Below are positions 431-37,965 of a stretch of DNA of 55,296 nucleotides, in pieces (the first letter of the stretch is position 1; every line of letters begins with the position of its first letter). The notes beneath the pieces were generated by a model that saw only the letters and a list, made by a program, of their open reading frames with translations, was not told the DNA's origin and ran no database searches. Source of the DNA: Cyanobium sp. PCC 7001 (lineage in GTDB: Bacteria; Cyanobacteriota; Cyanobacteriia; PCC-6307; Cyanobiaceae); NCBI RefSeq assembly GCF_000155635.1, contig NZ_DS990556.1:554780-610075 (forward strand). Reading direction: 5' to 3'. The translations under genes were made by a program, and so were the position numbers.

Positions 431-2101
431 ATGCTCCGTTCCGATGCGATCACCCAGGGCGTCCAGCGCTCGCCCAACCGGGCCATGCTGCGGGCCGTGG
501 GTTTCGGGGATGACGACTTCGGCAAGCCGATCATCGGGATCGCCAACGGCTACAGCACGATCACGCCCTGCAACCTCGGCCTGAACGACCTCACCCGCCG
601 GGCGGAGCAGGCCGCCCAGGCCGCCGGGGCCATGCCCCAGACCTTCGGCACCATCACGGTGAGCGATGGCATCTCGATGGGCACCGAAGGGATGAAGTAC
701 TCCCTGGTGAGCCGCGAGGTGATCGCCGATTCGATCGAAACCGCCTGCAACGCCCAGAGCATGGACGGCCTGCTGGCTGTGGGCGGCTGCGACAAGAACA
801 TGCCCGGCGCCATGCTGGCCATGGCCCGGATGAACATCCCGGCTATCTTCGTGTACGGGGGCACCATCAAGCCCGGCAGGCTGGGGCCCTGTGACCTCAC
901 GGTGGTGAGCGCCTTCGAGGCGGTCGGCCAGTTCTCCGGCGGTCGCATCGATGAGTCCGAACTCCTCGCGATCGAGAAGAACGCCTGTCCTGGTGCCGGC
1001 AGCTGCGGGGGCATGTTCACCGCCAACACGATGAGTTCGGCCTTCGAGGTGCTGGGCCTCAGCCTTCCCTACAGCTCCACCATGGCGGCGGAAGATCCGG
1101 AGAAGGCGGAGAGCGCCGCCCGTTCCGCCGAGGTGCTGGTGCAGGCCATCGCCGCCGACATCCGTCCCCGGGACCTGCTCACCCGGGAGGCCTTCGAGAA
1201 CGCCATCAGCGTGATCATGGCCGTGGGCGGTTCCACCAACTCGGTGCTGCACCTGCTGGCCATCGCCCGCACCGCAGGGGTGGAGCTCAGCATCGACGAC
1301 TTCGAGCGGATCCGCCAGCGCGTGCCGGTGATCTGCGACCTCAAGCCCAGCGGCCGCTATGTGACGGTGGACCTGCATCGGGCCGGGGGCATTCCCCAGG
1401 TGATGAAGCTCCTGCTCGACGCCGGTCTGCTGCATGGCGACTGCCGCACGATCGAAGGTAAGACCCTCACGGAGGTGCTGGCTTCGGTTCCCAGTGATCC
1501 CCCCGCCGATCAGGACGTGATCCGTCCGCTCAGCAACCCCCTCTATGCCAGGGGGCACCTGGCCATCCTCAAGGGAAATCTGGCGGAGGAAGGGGCGGTG
1601 GCCAAGATCTCCGGGGTGAAGACCCCGGTGATCACCGGCCCGGCCCGGGTGTTCGAGAGCGAGGAGTCCTGCCTGGCCGCCATTCTGGCCGGCGGCATCC
1701 AGCCCGGCGACGTGGTGGTGGTGCGCAACGAGGGGCCGGTGGGCGGGCCCGGCATGCGCGAGATGCTGAGCCCCACGGCCGCCATCATCGGCCAGGGGCT
1801 GGGCGAGAGCGTCGCCCTGATCACCGACGGTCGCTTCTCCGGTGGCTCCTACGGCCTGGTGGTGGGCCATGTGGCCCCGGAGGCCGCCGTGGGGGGAACG
1901 ATCGGCCTGGTGCACGAGGGGGACAGCATCACCGTGGATGCGAACCAGCTGCTGATCCAGCTGAACGTGCCCGACGAGGAACTGGCTGCCCGGCGGGCTG
2001 CCTGGGTGAAGCCCGAGCCCCGCTACCGAACCGGTGTGCTCGGCAAGTACGCCCGGCTGGTGAGCAGCAGCAGCCTCGGTGCGGTGACCGATCTGGCCTG
2101 A
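431..2101 (+). CDS. ilvD: Dihydroxy-acid dehydratase
   Basis: This enzyme dehydrates 2,3-dihydroxy-isovalerate and 2,3-dihydroxy-3-methylvalerate to the 2-keto acids that become valine, leucine and isoleucine, in the cytoplasm. The 556 residues match the usual family length. Conserved landmarks are visible: TPCNLGL with Cys47, GGCDKNMPG with Cys120 and [10 protein letters not shown] with Cys192, a three-cysteine set that fits a [2Fe-2S] cluster, followed by the C-terminal [10 protein letters not shown] block. The ATG start gives the normal N-terminus, [13 protein letters not shown]. It follows a small membrane protein by 30 bases and converges on the hypothetical gene ending at 2117. Identity is secure; cluster type is inferred from the cysteine pattern. 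Confidence 0.97.
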
Positions 2102-32244: not shown

Positions 32245-33170
32245 CAGGGGGTGAAGCGGGCGATCACCTTGAGGCCGGTGCGCTGGCGCACCCGCTGGGC
32301 GTCAGCCGGATCCAGCTCCACCCGCACCTCCACGATCCGGGCATCCACATCACCGGTGGGGTCGGTCTCGAGGACGTCCCGCTGCCGCACCTGGGGGCTG
32401 ATCCGGAGCACCCGGCCGCTGAGCGTACCCTCGAAGCCGCCGTTCTCACTCGTCAAGGTGACCGTCTGACCCACCCGCACCCGGTCGATGTCGCTCTCGT
32501 AGACCTCGATCAGGGCCTCCATGCGATCGCTGGCCCCCAGATCCAGCACGCCGTCGTCCGTGGGACGCTCGCCCACCCGGGCGTGCAGCCGCAGCACGGT
32601 GCCGCCGATCGGAGCTCGCAGCTCGGTGAGCTTGAGGTCCGCATCGATGCGGTCGCGCTCCGCCAGGGCCTCCTGCAGCTGGCCCTTGAGCTCGAGGAGA
32701 TTGGTCTCCCGGGTGTCGAGCTCGCCGCTGGGGATGGCGCCGCTTCGGCTGAGGGAGCGGTAGCGGGCGATGTCCCGTTCCTGAACGCTGACCCGGCTGC
32801 GCAGGTTGGCGATCCTGGCCTCCACCAGGCGACGCTGGGCCTGCAGCGGGTCGGCGGTGTCGAACACGGCCAGCAGCTGGCCTGGGGCCACCCGTTCGCC
32901 TTCCTGCACCAGCAGTCTGGTGATGCGGGGACTGCCGCCGATGCCCGTGATCGGGGCGGCCAGGGACCGGATCTCCCCCCGGGGATCGAGGCGGCCGAGG
33001 GCCGCCACCGCCTCGGGACGAGCCGGTTGGGCCACGCTGCCGGCGGGGGCTGCCGCGGGCTGGCGGCTCATCAGGCGTTGGCCGGCGATCACGGCCAGGG
33101 CCAGCACCACCGAGCCGCTGAGCACCAGCAGAAGCGTGCCGGAGCGGAACTCCCGGCCCAGGATCGTCAC
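32244..33170 (-). CDS. devB: DevB-type periplasmic adaptor (HlyD family)
   Basis: It is the membrane-fusion protein linking the DevCA pump to an outer-membrane TolC-type channel. I start at GTG 33170, which overlaps the pcyA stop as GTGA; the frame reaches 34298 but the upstream part lies inside pcyA and is not protein-like. The 308 residues have an N-terminal membrane anchor ([20 protein letters not shown]), a lipoyl-like half ([13 protein letters not shown]), a coiled-coil hairpin (about 110-200, with [19 protein letters not shown]), and a second lipoyl half ([18 protein letters not shown]) plus beta-barrel. Coupling to pcyA is notable. Confidence 0.92.
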
Positions 33171-33934
33171 GGTGCCGGTGGGTCGTCGAAAAGGAGCTCT
33201 TCGATGTAGCGGTCGGCCCAGGCCGGGTTGAACGCCTTCTCCAGCACCCGACGGGTCTTGTCGTTTTGTTTCTGCTGCTTGCAGTACCGGAGCTGGCCGT
33301 TCCATCGCGCAACAGTAGCCGGAGCGTCGCTGGGCTGCGCTTCGCTGACTCTGATCGCTGCGGCGAGCACGTCGAGCACGTCGGCCACCTCCCCGATGAA
33401 GGCCTGCTCCTCGGCTTCCGACACCGGCCGGATGAACCGCACATGGGGGGAGAAGATCGAGCCCCAGGCGGGCAGCTCCCGCTCCTGCTGGTACACGCGC
33501 TTCTGCCGCCGGGCCAGGGCCTGCTCGATGCCCGCGGGCAGCACGCCCGTCACCGGCGAGAGATCCACGATTGCAGCGGACACGCCGGCCGGTCCGGCCA
33601 CGATGTCGGCCCCGAACACCGGCAGGTCGTAGCGGGGATCCGGGAACAGCACGCAGTGCAGGATCTGCAGGCCGGCGCCGAGGCGGGCCGTTTCCAGGTG
33701 CAGCTTGCGCAGGCCCCGGCACTGCTTCAGCTCGTTGCGGATGAACAGGGCCTCGCCGTCCAGGCTGCCGCAGATGGCCTCCAGTTCGGGATCGATCGCC
33801 AGGGGGGCCAGATCCGGCATCGCCTGCCAGCAGCTGCGGATGCGCTCGGCCAGGGCATCCACCAGCGGATGCACTCCCCCCGCCGCCCTGCTCGCAGCCA
33901 CCCTGGCCCGGTCCTGATCGGAACTGCTCGCCAT
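33167..33934 (-). CDS. pcyA: Phycocyanobilin:ferredoxin oxidoreductase
   Basis: It reduces biliverdin by four electrons from ferredoxin to phycocyanobilin, the phycobilisome and phytochrome chromophore. I start at ATG 33934, which has a good AGGAG seven bases upstream; a start 18 bases earlier is in frame. The 255 residues contain the FDBR signatures [29 protein letters not shown] (with the catalytic-region His) and AAIVDLSPV (catalytic Asp), then [13 protein letters not shown]. This fits PcyA better than PebA/PebB. It is first in the pcyA-devBCA run and divergent from the M16 peptidase pair. Confidence 0.94.
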
Positions 33935-34008
33935 GGCTCGGCTCCTCAGCACACGCCTGTCTGCAGGGCCCGGAGGACGCCCCCAGCCAGCAGAATGCTG
34001 ATCCTGCC

Positions 34009-35295
34009 ATGCGTTGTGCCTTGCCCCTGGCTCCCGCTTCCATTCCCCTGCCAGGCCTGGCCGACCCCCAGCTGGACACCCTGCCCAACGGTGCCCGCAT
34101 CGCCCGGATGCCTCTCCCTGAGGCCCCGCTGGTGTGCGTGGATTTCTGGTGCCGGGCAGGCAGTGCCTTCGAGCAGCCCGGTGAGAGCGGTCTGGCCCAC
34201 TTCCTCGAGCACATGGTGTTCAAGGGCAGCGCCCATCTCGAACCGGGTGAGTTCGACTGGCGGATCGAAGCCATGGGCGGCAGCAGCAACGCCGCCACCG
34301 GCTATGACGATGTGCACTACCACGTGCTGATCCCCCCGGCCGCGGCTCCCGAAGCCCTCGACCTGTTGCTGGAGCTGGTGCTCGAACCTCGCCTGGAGCG
34401 CGAAGCCTTCCAGCTGGAGCGGCAGGTGGTGCTCGAGGAGCTGGCCCAGAGTGAGGATCAGCCCGAGGACGTCGCCCTGCAGCGGCTGCTGCGGCTCGGC
34501 TGCGGCGACCATCCCTACGGAGCCGCGATCCTGGGGGAGCGCCAGGCCCTGCTGCACCACACGCCCGCCGCCATGGCGGGGTTCCAGCGCCGGCTGTACG
34601 GCGCCAATGGTTGCGTGCTGGCCCTGGCCGGCGCTCTGGACTCCGTGGCTGCGTCCCTGGACAGCCGCATCCAGAACGGTGCCCTGGCCCGGCTGGCACC
34701 GATCCCGTCGCCACCGCCACCGCCGGCGCTGGCGGTGCAACCGGGTCAGCACCGCATCGCCCTGCCGCGGCTGGAGTCCGCCCGCCTGCTGATGCTCTGG
34801 CAGCTCCCCGCCGCCGAGGATCTGCATGCCGTGATGGGAGCGGATCTGCTCACCACGGTGCTGGCGGAAGGCCGCCGCAGCCGCCTGGTGGCGCTGCTGC
34901 GGGAAGAGCTGCGGTTGGTGGAGAGCATCGACCTCGACCTCCACGTGATGGAGTGCGGCAGCTTCGCCCTGCTGGAGGCCATCTGCGACGCCTCCGATCT
35001 GGAGACGGTGGCGGCCGCGATCGAACAGGCCTGGCACGAGCTCGGCGAACGCCCGCTCGGCGCCCAGGAGTGGGATCGGGCCTGCCATCTGGTGGGCAAT
35101 GGCTACCGCTTCGGCCTCGAGTCGGCCGGTGGCGTGGCGGGCACGGTGGGCAACAACCTGCTCTGGGGCCGCAGCCATCCCCTGGCCCGGCCGCTGGAGG
35201 AGCTGGGCCACTGGTCGCCCGATCGCCTGCAGACCAGCCTGGTGCCGCTGCTGGATCCGGCCCTGGCCTGCCGGCTCGAGGCGGTGCCCGCATGA
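34009..35295 (+). CDS. M16 family zinc peptidase, catalytic member
   Basis: It is an insulinase/processing-peptidase-like metalloprotease. The 428 residues carry the inverted zinc motif HFLEH (in [13 protein letters not shown], about residue 64) and the downstream Glu pair region [15 protein letters not shown]. The second half repeats the M16 fold, with the conserved [21 protein letters not shown] block. No signal peptide is obvious, so a cytoplasmic role is likely. It overlaps the next M16 gene by 4 bases (ATGA), suggesting a 1:1 heterodimer. It is divergent from pcyA, with about 74 bases between the starts. Confidence 0.94.
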
Positions 35296-36599
35296 GTCGC
35301 TGGACCTCCAGCCGCCTCGCTGGCGGCCTTCCCCTGGTGAGCCAGCACCGCCCCGGCGTCGGCCTGGTGGCGGCGCGCCTCTGGATCCGTGGCGGCAGCA
35401 GCGTGGAAGGGCCCGGGATGCGAGGGGCCATGCAGCTGCTGGCCGGGGTCATGACCCGTGGCTGCGGCGAGCTTGACGCCGAGCAGCTCGCCGATCTGGT
35501 GGAAGGACGCGGCGCCGCCCTGCGCAGCGAAGCCCATGAGGACGCCCTGGTGATCAGCCTCAAGTGCGCCAGCAGCGATCTGCTCGAGCTGCTGCCCCTG
35601 CTGATCGCCATGGCCCGCGATCCAGCCCTGGAGGACGACCAGGTGACCCTCGAGCGCGACCTGAACCTCCAGAACCTGCAGCGGCAGCAGGAGGATCCCT
35701 TTCAGCTCGCCCATGACCACCTGCGTCGCTTGCTCTACGACGACGGCCCCTACGGCCACGATCCTCTGGGGGTTCCCGATGAGCTCTCCCGGCTGGGCCC
35801 CGGCGAGATCCGCCCCCAGCTTGCGGACCTCGGGCGCCATGGCGCCGTGCTGGTGCTCTGCGGTGACCTGCCGGATCCCGATGCCGTGCGGCAGTGCCTC
35901 AATGCCCAGCTGGCCCTGACGCCCTGGCCGACGGCTGCCCCCCAGCCGGCACCCCAGCCGGCGCCCCTACGTCCCGGCTCCGCCGGCGCGGACCTGGCGC
36001 TGGTGCCCCAGGACACCGAACAACTGGTGCTGATGCTGGGGTCGGCCACGGTGCCCCTGGGCAACCCCGATGCCCTCTGCCTGCGGTTGCTGCAGGCCCA
36101 TGCCGGCGTAGGGATGTCCAGCCGGTTGTTCGTGGTGATGCGGGAGGAGCGGGGACTGGCCTACGACGTGGGGGTGCACATGCCGGGACGCTGCGGCCCC
36201 AGCCCCTTCGTGTGGCACATGTCCACCTCCGCCGATCGGGCCGCCGAGGCCCTGGACTGCCTGCTGGACGAGTGGATGGAGCTGGGCCGCTCGCCCCTCA
36301 ACGAAGACGAGCTCGTCCTGGCCAAGGCCAAATTCCGCGGCCAGGAAGCGATGGGCCGTCAGACCTGCGGCCAGGTGGCCGACCGCCAGGCCCTCGTGCT
36401 CGGCCACGGCCTTCCCGCCACCTATGTGCACGATGCCCTCGCCGAGGCGGAAGGGCTCGCGGCCATCAGCCTGCAGGCCGCAGCGCAACGCCAGCTGGAG
36501 CAGCCCAGGCTCAGCCTCTGCGGACCGGGCCCCGCCCTGGAGGCTGCGGCCGAGGTGTGGCGACGGCGCCAGCCCCATGGGCCGCCGGACACTCGTTAA
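35292..36599 (+). CDS. M16 family peptidase homologue, non-catalytic partner
   Basis: It is the second member of an M16 pair. I start at ATG 35292, overlapping the previous stop; the frame extends upstream but inside the first M16 gene. The 435 residues have the M16 fold (LWIRGGSSVEGPGMRGAMQL at the N-terminus; SSRLFVVMREERGLAYDVGV in the second half). At the zinc-site position HxxEH is replaced by AMQLLAGVM, so it should not bind zinc. In bacterial M16B pairs such a subunit supplies the conserved Arg-Tyr substrate contacts to its catalytic partner. The ferritin-like gene follows after 25 bases. Confidence 0.92.
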   Translation: MSRWTSSRLAGGLPLVSQHRPGVGLVAARLWIRGGSSVEGPGMRGAMQLLAGVMTRGCGELDAEQLADLVEGRGAALRSEAHEDALVISLKCASSDLLELLPLLIAMARDPALEDDQVTLERDLNLQNLQRQQEDPFQLAHDHLRRLLYDDGPYGHDPLGVPDELSRLGPGEIRPQLADLGRHGAVLVLCGDLPDPDAVRQCLNAQLALTPWPTAAPQPAPQPAPLRPGSAGADLALVPQDTEQLVLMLGSATVPLGNPDALCLRLLQAHAGVGMSSRLFVVMREERGLAYDVGVHMPGRCGPSPFVWHMSTSADRAAEALDCLLDEWMELGRSPLNEDELVLAKAKFRGQEAMGRQTCGQVADRQALVLGHGLPATYVHDALAEAEGLAAISLQAAAQRQLEQPRLSLCGPGPALEAAAEVWRRRQPHGPPDTR

Positions 36600-36624
36600 C
36601 GTCGAAGCACGATCCTGGCGTTCC

Positions 36625-37512
36625 ATGCCTGTCACCTATCCCCGCAAGCTCTCCAACAACCTCAGCGCCCGGCAGGTGATGCAGCAGGTGGTGAAAAAGC
36701 GGGAATTGCAGATTCTCTTTCTGAACAGTTATCGCTTCAACGAACAGCGCTCCTGCCTCGAACTCACCAGCCTGATCGAGTTGCTCGACGGCGAACCAGC
36801 GGAACTGGTGCGTGATCTCTCCCACCACGTGAGTGATGAGGCCCGCCATGCCGTGTGGCTCACCGACCTCCTCTACGAGCTGGGCGAACCGATCGGCAAC
36901 CCGGCCACGTCTTCCTACATCGACGAGCTCAACCGCCTGCTGGACAGCTCCGCCGCCGGTGCCCGCAAGGATGAGGCCGTGGTGGCGGCCCTGGCCTCGA
37001 TCAACGCCACCGAAAAGCGCGGCTGCCAGACCTTCTCGGCCCACATCCACGCCCTCAAGACGGCCCCGGCCAGCGAAGAGAACGCCAGGATCCAGGCCAC
37101 CCTCGAGAAGATCCTGCCCGAGGAGGCCGCCCACGTGCGCTGGGGCAACCGCTGGCTCTGCCGGATCGCCAGCCGCAGTGCCGCCGACCGCGCCCGGGTG
37201 GATGAGGCCAAGCACCGCTATTCCCTGATCGAGCACGCGGCCTATGCCGCCGGCATGGACATCACCGCCGGGGCAGAGCTGCGAAGGCTGGCGAGCCTGG
37301 TGGACATCGCCAACACCATTCCCGCCTGGCAGCGTCCGGCCTACCTGCTGGAGCGTCTGCCCCAGACGCTGCTGGCACCGGATCTGCAGAAATCCCGCTT
37401 CCTGGCGGCGCGCCGGGTGTGGGAGCAGGAACCGGCCCAGTTCTTCGAGACCTTCGTGCCGATGTTCCTCAGCGGCCTCAAGGGGCTGCGGCCCAGCTCC
37501 AGCCGGGCCTGA
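36625..37512 (+). CDS. Ferritin-like diiron-carboxylate protein
   Basis: It is a predicted four-helix-bundle protein with a dinuclear metal site. I start at ATG 36625 (295 residues); the frame is open further upstream, inside the M16 gene. Helix landmarks match the diiron pattern: Glu40 or Glu46 in helix A, E72-A-R-H75 in helix B, Glu130 in helix C, and E167-A-A-H170 in helix D. The C-terminal third is helical and ends in a Ser-rich tail. The reaction is unknown: hydroxylase, oxidase or iron handling are all possible. It sits 25 bases after the M16 pair, so cotranscription is likely. It converges on sipA. Confidence 0.8.
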   Translation: MPVTYPRKLSNNLSARQVMQQVVKKRELQILFLNSYRFNEQRSCLELTSLIELLDGEPAELVRDLSHHVSDEARHAVWLTDLLYELGEPIGNPATSSYIDELNRLLDSSAAGARKDEAVVAALASINATEKRGCQTFSAHIHALKTAPASEENARIQATLEKILPEEAAHVRWGNRWLCRIASRSAADRARVDEAKHRYSLIEHAAYAAGMDITAGAELRRLASLVDIANTIPAWQRPAYLLERLPQTLLAPDLQKSRFLAARRVWEQEPAQFFETFVPMFLSGLKGLRPSSSRA

Positions 37513-37578: not shown

Positions 37579-37965
37579 TCAACCCTGGGCCCCATCCTTC
37601 CCTTCGGAATCGGACCCTTCGGATCCGGACGCAGCGCTCACGGCTTCCGCTTCCACCAGAAAGGTGCCGCGCCGGAATCGCACGGCCAGCTGGCCCAGGG
37701 CCCGCAGGCCCACCACCGTGCCCACCTCATCGATCCCCACCAGATCGGGCGGCCGCAGCATGGGCATCGGATCGGCTGTCTTGAGATAGCGCGGTGTGCG
37801 CTGGAGGCTCACCTGATCACCGACGCGCCAGGCCCTCACCGCCTCCTGCGGTGCCATGCCGGCCTGCTCGGGGCTGGGGGAGCCGTCTTCGCCGCTGGTC
37901 GGGCTCGGCTCCGAAGGGCCGGTGGGTGATGGAACGGGTGGCATGGGCAGAGGCAGCAGCCCCAT
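37579..37965 (-). CDS. sipA: SipA-like regulator (DUF3148)
   Basis: The C-terminal two thirds (about residues 45-110) match the SipA/DUF3148 fold: WRVGDQVSLQRTPRYLKTAD, MPMLRPPDLVGIDEVGTVVG, and a final AVRFRRGTFLVEAE strand. SipA is a small SH3-like protein that binds the conserved cyanobacterial histidine kinase NblS/Hik33 and affects high-light and stress signalling. Here it has an unusual Pro/Ser-rich N-terminal extension of about 40 residues and an acidic Ser/Gly tail, so 128 residues against roughly 75 in other cyanobacteria. A later start (the next Met, at 37944) would still include part of the extension. It is divergent from bioY with overlapping possible starts. Confidence 0.75.
   Translation of the reverse strand: MGLLPLPMPPVPSPTGPSEPSPTSGEDGSPSPEQAGMAPQEAVRAWRVGDQVSLQRTPRYLKTADPMPMLRPPDLVGIDEVGTVVGLRALGQLAVRFRRGTFLVEAEAVSAASGSEGSDSEGKDGAQG

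Follow-up and report, generated by a model that had tools for sequence, protein, structure and literature searches.

DUF455 (PF04305) is a ferritin-like Pfam family of unknown function, and no paper on that function was found in the open-access literature, an apparent match to the name being to DUF4551. Among other ferritin-like proteins, bacterioferritin has a six-ligand site. MiaE (PF06175), the tRNA 2-methylthio-N6-isopentenyladenosine hydroxylase, has a site of four glutamates and two histidines, as does the DUF455 protein described here. The aldehyde-deformylating oxygenase ADO is another cyanobacterial diiron enzyme, for which support by ferredoxin (Fd) and FNR is reported (PMC3691600). 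A function for DUF455 would give one remaining unassigned ferritin-like family a role, and cyanobacterial metabolism would gain a further diiron enzyme; the DUF455 protein is often the sole one in a carrier genome, with no partner to reveal its task.

In the window, the whole stretch of 55,296 nucleotides of the Cyanobium sp. PCC 7001 genome analysed here, a single open reading frame with an ATG start and a TGA stop encodes a DUF455 protein of 295 aa (Table 1). The window protein scores 40.1 bits with PF04305, whose cut-off is 34.3, and the match covers residues 55-190 and profile positions 89-212 of 247; in a homologue the match extends up to profile positions 37-241. The 295-aa cyanobacterial group differs from the family profile in having a C-terminal extension of its own. 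The initial annotation could not match the protein to a known enzyme, and this holds in so far as no enzyme was matched, but a named Pfam family does pass its cut-off. In the profile search against ferritin-like families that it proposed, DUF455 is matched, whereas PF00210 (bacterioferritin/ferritin), PF06175 (MiaE) and PF11266 (ADO) are absent from the window protein's Pfam matches at E values up to 10. Among 35 members, PF06175 matches one (E 0.077) and PF02915 Rubrerythrin weakly matches 13 (best E 2e-4). The window protein has no family match in NCBIfam or PADLOC and a single row in PHROGs (E 0.27). When the DUF455 model was run over 291 genomes of the phylum it found the same 30 full-length genes as the homologue search, 28 of them above the cut-off and two below it (31.6 and 27.4 bits), and one further match above the cut-off, in genome G035. 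The window protein is a genuine case of an uncharacterised, well-conserved diiron protein within an already named family.

Table 1. Features of the DUF455 locus (positions in the window, except where another locus is named) and the basis for each.
Feature	Position	Strand	Basis or remark
pcyA-like ORF, incidental neighbour	33167..33952	-	label by eye; synteny block
M16a peptidase-like ORF, incidental neighbour	34009..35295	+	Pfam PF00675 + PF05193; synteny
M16b peptidase-like ORF, incidental neighbour	35292..36599	+	25-26% identity to M16a
Candidate -10 element CTCGTTAACGTC of own promoter	36592..36603	+	overlaps M16b stop codon 36597-36599
DUF455-family ferritin-like diiron protein CDS	36625..37512	+	translation, Pfam PF04305, dN/dS
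Ligand E40 codon, helix 1 (26-54)	36742..36744	+	110/110 rows; AlphaFold model
Ligands E72xxH75 codons, helix 2 (59-85)	36838..36849	+	110/110 rows; AlphaFold model
Ligand E130 codon, helix 3 (115-146)	37012..37014	+	110/110 rows; AlphaFold model
Ligands E167xxH170 codons, helix 4 (151-182)	37123..37134	+	110/110 rows; AlphaFold model
E203 codon, helix 5; possible extra carboxylate near site	37231..37233	+	109/110 rows
ndhO-like ORF, right border of insert	37579..37965	-	label by eye; directly after M16b at empty sites
Small diiron proteins nearest in sequence	L124 8782-9351; L123 8104-8667		hhalign

Conserved residues and predicted fold

The initial annotation described an E...ExxH...E...ExxH set; the set is present and the residue numbers given for it are exact. 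E40, E72, H75, E130, E167 and H170 are identical in 110/110 aligned rows, the alignment consisting of the window protein, L001-L080 and L082-L110 with redundant rows kept, such that the same genome may occur twice; the named homologues, 80 in number, rank highest among the 174 relatives that one scan of genome contigs gave. The same six ligands are identical in 82/82 rows of a smaller alignment, in which the window's own copy accounts for two rows, and in 53/53 rows of an alignment that includes two relatives with 24% and 31% identity to the first row. The conservation of the six ligands in homologues, and of both ExxH motifs in particular, on which the diiron reading had been made to depend, is therefore found. 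E46, which had been offered as an alternative ligand, fares differently: position 46 is Asp in 98/110 rows, and E46 is therefore unlikely to be a required ligand. Also identical in 110/110 rows are Y36, R37, H68, Y98, R132, E166, W173, C44 and C134, and E203 is identical in 109/110. The residues invariant in the 53 rows are, in window numbering, Y36, R37, E40, H68, E72, H75, A76, T80, Y98, E130, R132, T159, I163, E167, H170, W173 and L178. C44 and C134, each four residues past the glutamate of helix 1 or helix 3, fall outside this set, as does E203, which aligns with Asp in a distant relative. Judged from the alignments, conservation of the putative active site is as strict as in a catalytic enzyme.

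Two AlphaFold models, one of the window protein (35 rows, mean pLDDT 74.3) and one of homologue L014 (53 rows, mean pLDDT 79.4), both carry E40, E72/H75, E130 and E167/H170 on four long helices, followed by a fifth helix with E203 and then by C-terminal helices of lower confidence. In VIA-align comparisons ranks 1-7 are taken in both models by the PDB chains 5ux1, 8fhc, 2itb, 6zma, 8afj, 6zmb and 8fhb, with Z of 16.8-19.0 for the window model and 17.6-19.6 for the L014 model. The row after these seven has Z 15.3 (window) and 15.5 (L014), and ADO and bacterioferritin follow at about 14-15. All seven top chains are MiaE-family by sequence, in a search with the Cyanobium sp. PCC 7001 MiaE. Three of the entries, 5ux1, 8fhb and 8fhc, have 'aldehyde deformylating' titles, yet are MiaE-family by sequence and by molecule name. 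Foldseek E-values for the window protein are weak, the best being 5.9e-3, and heme-oxygenase-like diiron families are not prominent among the fold rows listed, which is no evidence against them. The models support the window protein having a ferritin-like four-helix fold along with its conserved diiron set of six ligands, as had been proposed from the primary sequence: the ligands sit on four helices in each, and the two ExxH motifs are predicted to lie on helices opposite one another in a bundle that can be aligned with MiaE.

MiaE is the best fold match to both models, and the ligand spacings of the window protein (32/55/37 residues) may be compared with those of the MiaE of the same genome (31/50/30); the window protein is about 90 residues longer than MiaE at the C-terminus. 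An hhalign comparison with seven cyanobacterial MiaE proteins, a shallow profile of 7 rows, gives no significant match (probability 1%, E 0.057). Of the five weakest matches of the DUF455 model in the phylum, four fall on MiaE genes, with scores of 19.7-22 bits that are under the cut-off, a hint of distant kinship between DUF455 and MiaE. ADO is a ferritin-like diiron enzyme like the window protein, and aligns at Z of about 15, below MiaE. Bacterioferritin shares the four-helix core, but the chain of the window protein is much longer, with the fifth helix and the C-terminal extension in addition. The nearest sequence relatives found are small diiron proteins of 187-189 aa (hhalign 97.4%, E 9e-12), which share Y36, R37, E40, H68, E72, H75, Y98, E130, R132, E167, H170 and W173 with the window protein, but are without the C-terminal extension and the paired Cys44/Cys134, and are encoded within a cluster, unlike the stand-alone gene of the window. 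Two distant members of the phylum have this cluster with its six genes in identical order, at L124 4124-9351 (G239) and L123 3450-8667 (G026). The order is an ICMT/PEMT-like methyltransferase, a KASIII-like protein, an AurF-type diiron N-oxygenase (Pfam in both), a class II aaRS-like protein (Pfam in both), a thioester-reductase-like SDR and the small DUF455-like diiron protein; in L124 these are followed by ORFs resembling a DevBCA exporter and an acyl-AMP ligase (by eye). This gene set has the look of a biosynthetic cluster, one that includes two diiron enzymes.

An accessory gene that moves as one unit

Two M16-like ORFs lie directly upstream of the diiron gene, as the initial annotation reported, and pcyA lies about 2.7 kb from it. 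Within the genus M16a, M16b, ndhO, bioY, lspA and further genes (labels partly by eye) form a fixed block. In a comparison of 11 genus loci, with G458 and G459 left out, three (the window, G347 and G369) have the DUF455 gene inserted on its own between M16b and ndhO; in the other eight (G388, G449, G416, G404, G438, G427, G314 and G460) the site is empty and M16b is followed directly by ndhO. G427 has a DUF455 gene at another place (L128). No match to the M16 genes was found beside the 11 nearest named homologue loci, with flanks of up to 6 kb and some much shorter. Because of this distribution of insert and empty sites, and the M16-free flanks, the linkage of the diiron gene to the M16 pair and pcyA is incidental, and an operon or pathway with either is rejected. 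The use of these neighbours as a clue to function is consequently lost, and the empty sites are a warning against reading function from the M16/pcyA neighbourhood; the orphan status claimed for the gene agrees with its being a single-gene insert.

The contexts of the diiron gene differ in the other lineages looked at. In two other picocyanobacterial loci, L005 and L009, it lies beside an ilvD-like ORF (label by eye), and the counterpart of this ORF at window positions 431-2098 is without a diiron gene, so that the same 55 kb contain a second empty site. Filamentous strains often have a glnA-like gene upstream (40/103 loci, within two ORFs on the same strand). A link to nitrogen through the glnA, gifA and patX neighbours of filamentous strains (by eye) was considered and set aside, as conservation of these neighbours does not extend to the other lineages looked at. 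The Anabaena name alr2331 for a homologue is inferred from the gene order given in PMC7761841, not from sequence.

Full-length homologues were found in 30/291 genomes of the phylum (33 at E <= 1e-3, three of these weak). The 30 carriers are among some 141 genomes of the window's class, a total counted from the genome listing, and about one fifth of the sampled class therefore carries a DUF455 gene. In a sample of the family the gene is present in 4/201 genomes, all within the genus, from which 10 genomes were sampled. In a midpoint-rooted tree of 44 rows the 14 picocyanobacterial rows lie on one side of a branch with 100/100 support. Because of this grouping, the simplest reading of the tree is that the gene had one origin in the picocyanobacterial group, followed by losses and relocations. 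The third-position G+C of the diiron gene, 0.872, is like that of its neighbours (0.827-0.903), and there is thus no sign of a very recent arrival. No relatives of the diiron protein were found in the plasmids, phages or viral contigs searched. The dN/dS of the diiron gene is 0.076 against G347 and 0.134 against G369, compared with 0.202 and 0.365 for M16a and 0.197 and 0.347 for M16b; purifying selection on the diiron gene is strong, and stronger than on the M16 genes. The diiron gene is accessory, patchily held, and moves as one unit.

This unit may extend beyond the coding sequence. An element of the GTTANNNT type (GTTA...T) is found at -60..-18 in 72/107 distinct upstreams, against a mean of 4.4 and a maximum of 12 in 30 shuffles, counts that are descriptive, given the relatedness of the homologues and a pattern picked once the sequences had been read. 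The shuffles are first-order Markov samples rather than exact dinucleotide shuffles. In a control stretch, -250..-60, the same pattern occurs in 31/107, a slight excess over the shuffles (mean 20.9, maximum 28). The 55 non-redundant examples have the form (C)GTTANNAT, with little else conserved. The presence of an own -10-like element near the ATG in most upstreams suggests that the mobile unit may be a candidate promoter plus the gene. Patterns of known regulators are not consistent features of the 109 upstreams: an NtcA-like pattern is found in seven, a crude Fur-like pattern in six and the RpaB/HLR1 pattern in none.

Possible functions

We consider the best explanation to be that the window protein is a soluble, stand-alone, ferritin-like diiron-carboxylate oxygenase of the DUF455 family, with a probability of roughly 0.58. 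An oxygenase was also the suggestion of the initial annotation, and it remains the best guess, MiaE-family hydroxylases being the top fold match in both models. In such an enzyme E40, E72, H75, E130, E167 and H170 on the four helices would bind two irons, and ferredoxin might, by analogy to ADO, reduce the site to Fe2(II,II). The reduced site would then bind O2 and convert it to a peroxo or high-valent species, which would hydroxylate or otherwise oxidise an organic substrate. Since the gene moves without a constant partner, any cell that carries it probably makes this substrate; among the loci compared no partner or pathway was found. The complete conservation of the ligands over the 110 rows, the seven top MiaE-family ranks, the similar ligand spacing and the low dN/dS count for an oxygenase, as does the biosynthetic setting of the nearest sequence relative, whose gene lies in one cluster with those for an AurF-type N-oxygenase and a thioester-reductase-like SDR. 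The weak Foldseek E-values and the non-significant profile link to MiaE count against it. Since six-ligand sites are also found in bacterioferritin, whose chains align at Z 14-15, the fold alone does not show oxygenase chemistry.

We also speculate, tentatively and with the odds clearly against it, that there could be a class of stand-alone, O2-activating diiron enzymes, as yet uncharacterised, of which the cyanobacterial DUF455 group would be the first branch to be recognised. Its signature would be YRxxE ... HxxxExxHA ... E-x-R ... ExxHxxW, common to the enzyme of the biosynthetic cluster and lying outside the known oxygenase families. C44, C134 and E203 would set an unusual second-shell chemistry, and the promoter-plus-gene unit would travel between cyanobacterial lineages, adding one oxidation to a metabolite already in the cell.

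The main rival to an oxygenase is a protective role of the bacterioferritin or rubrerythrin kind, in which the protein would act as a ferroxidase, scavenge peroxide or handle iron and would need no organic substrate. The bacterioferritin-type chains at Z of about 14-15 and the weak Rubrerythrin matches point in this direction, and a free-standing, partnerless gene with its own promoter-like element would fit a stress gene. However, the MiaE-family chains score 3-4 Z units above the bacterioferritin-type ones, a 295-aa chain with a conserved C-terminal extension is unlike a compact cage subunit, and the Fur-like motif is inconsistent among the upstreams. We therefore regard this role as unlikely, if still deserving of serious consideration. 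That no function is known for the diiron protein would be compatible with a non-catalytic or structural four-helix protein in which the site is a relic, but a relic would hardly have kept the six ligands together with Y36, R37, H68, R132 and W173 invariant over 53 rows that include relatives of 24-31% identity, and we give this reading almost no weight.

The protein could also be a second MiaE-like hydroxylase of tRNA, or of another RNA, with a different target nucleoside. MiaE chains are the best structural matches to both models and the sub-cut-off DUF455 matches on MiaE genes hint at distant kinship, but the profile comparison with MiaE is not significant (on only 7 MiaE rows) and the window's own genome (G000) has a separate MiaE at 222.6 bits. 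MiaE is missing in 5/30 carriers and in 14/111 non-carriers of the class (Fisher p 0.55, or p 0.38 with the broken MiaE of G197 counted as missing). A second RNA hydroxylase appears improbable to us. Replacement of MiaE, the form of the earlier tRNA suggestion that was examined here, is rejected, since a MiaE is already present in the genome and the two genes vary independently across the class. Nearly all other genomes of the class have MiaE; in G161, G177, G262, G197 and G129 it is found as fragments, several with in-frame stops, or as a split gene.

A role in phycobilin or chlorophyll metabolism, which the nearness of pcyA had suggested, is very improbable. An apcF-like gene (by eye) does lie near the diiron gene in many filamentous cyanobacteria (45 loci), and phycobilisome-domain matches number 10-14 in the four carriers of the genus and 8-14 in the six non-carriers, a difference that assembly quality could cause. 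Against this, pcyA is retained at the eight genus loci where the insert is missing, and phycoerythrin-like matches (by eye, from match length) are present in 1/4 carriers and 2/6 non-carriers. A link to phycoerythrin was accordingly dropped, there being no pattern among the 10 genus genomes of known carrier status (pigment type by eye), and the phycobiliprotein inventory of the genus leaves the tetrapyrrole suggestion unsupported. The inventory also contains what appears by eye to be a tandem duplication of phycocyanin genes, with at least three closely spaced cpcBA-like pairs of equal score in G000 (C1:1499287-1504334), and four cpcBA-like pairs (by eye) in G347.
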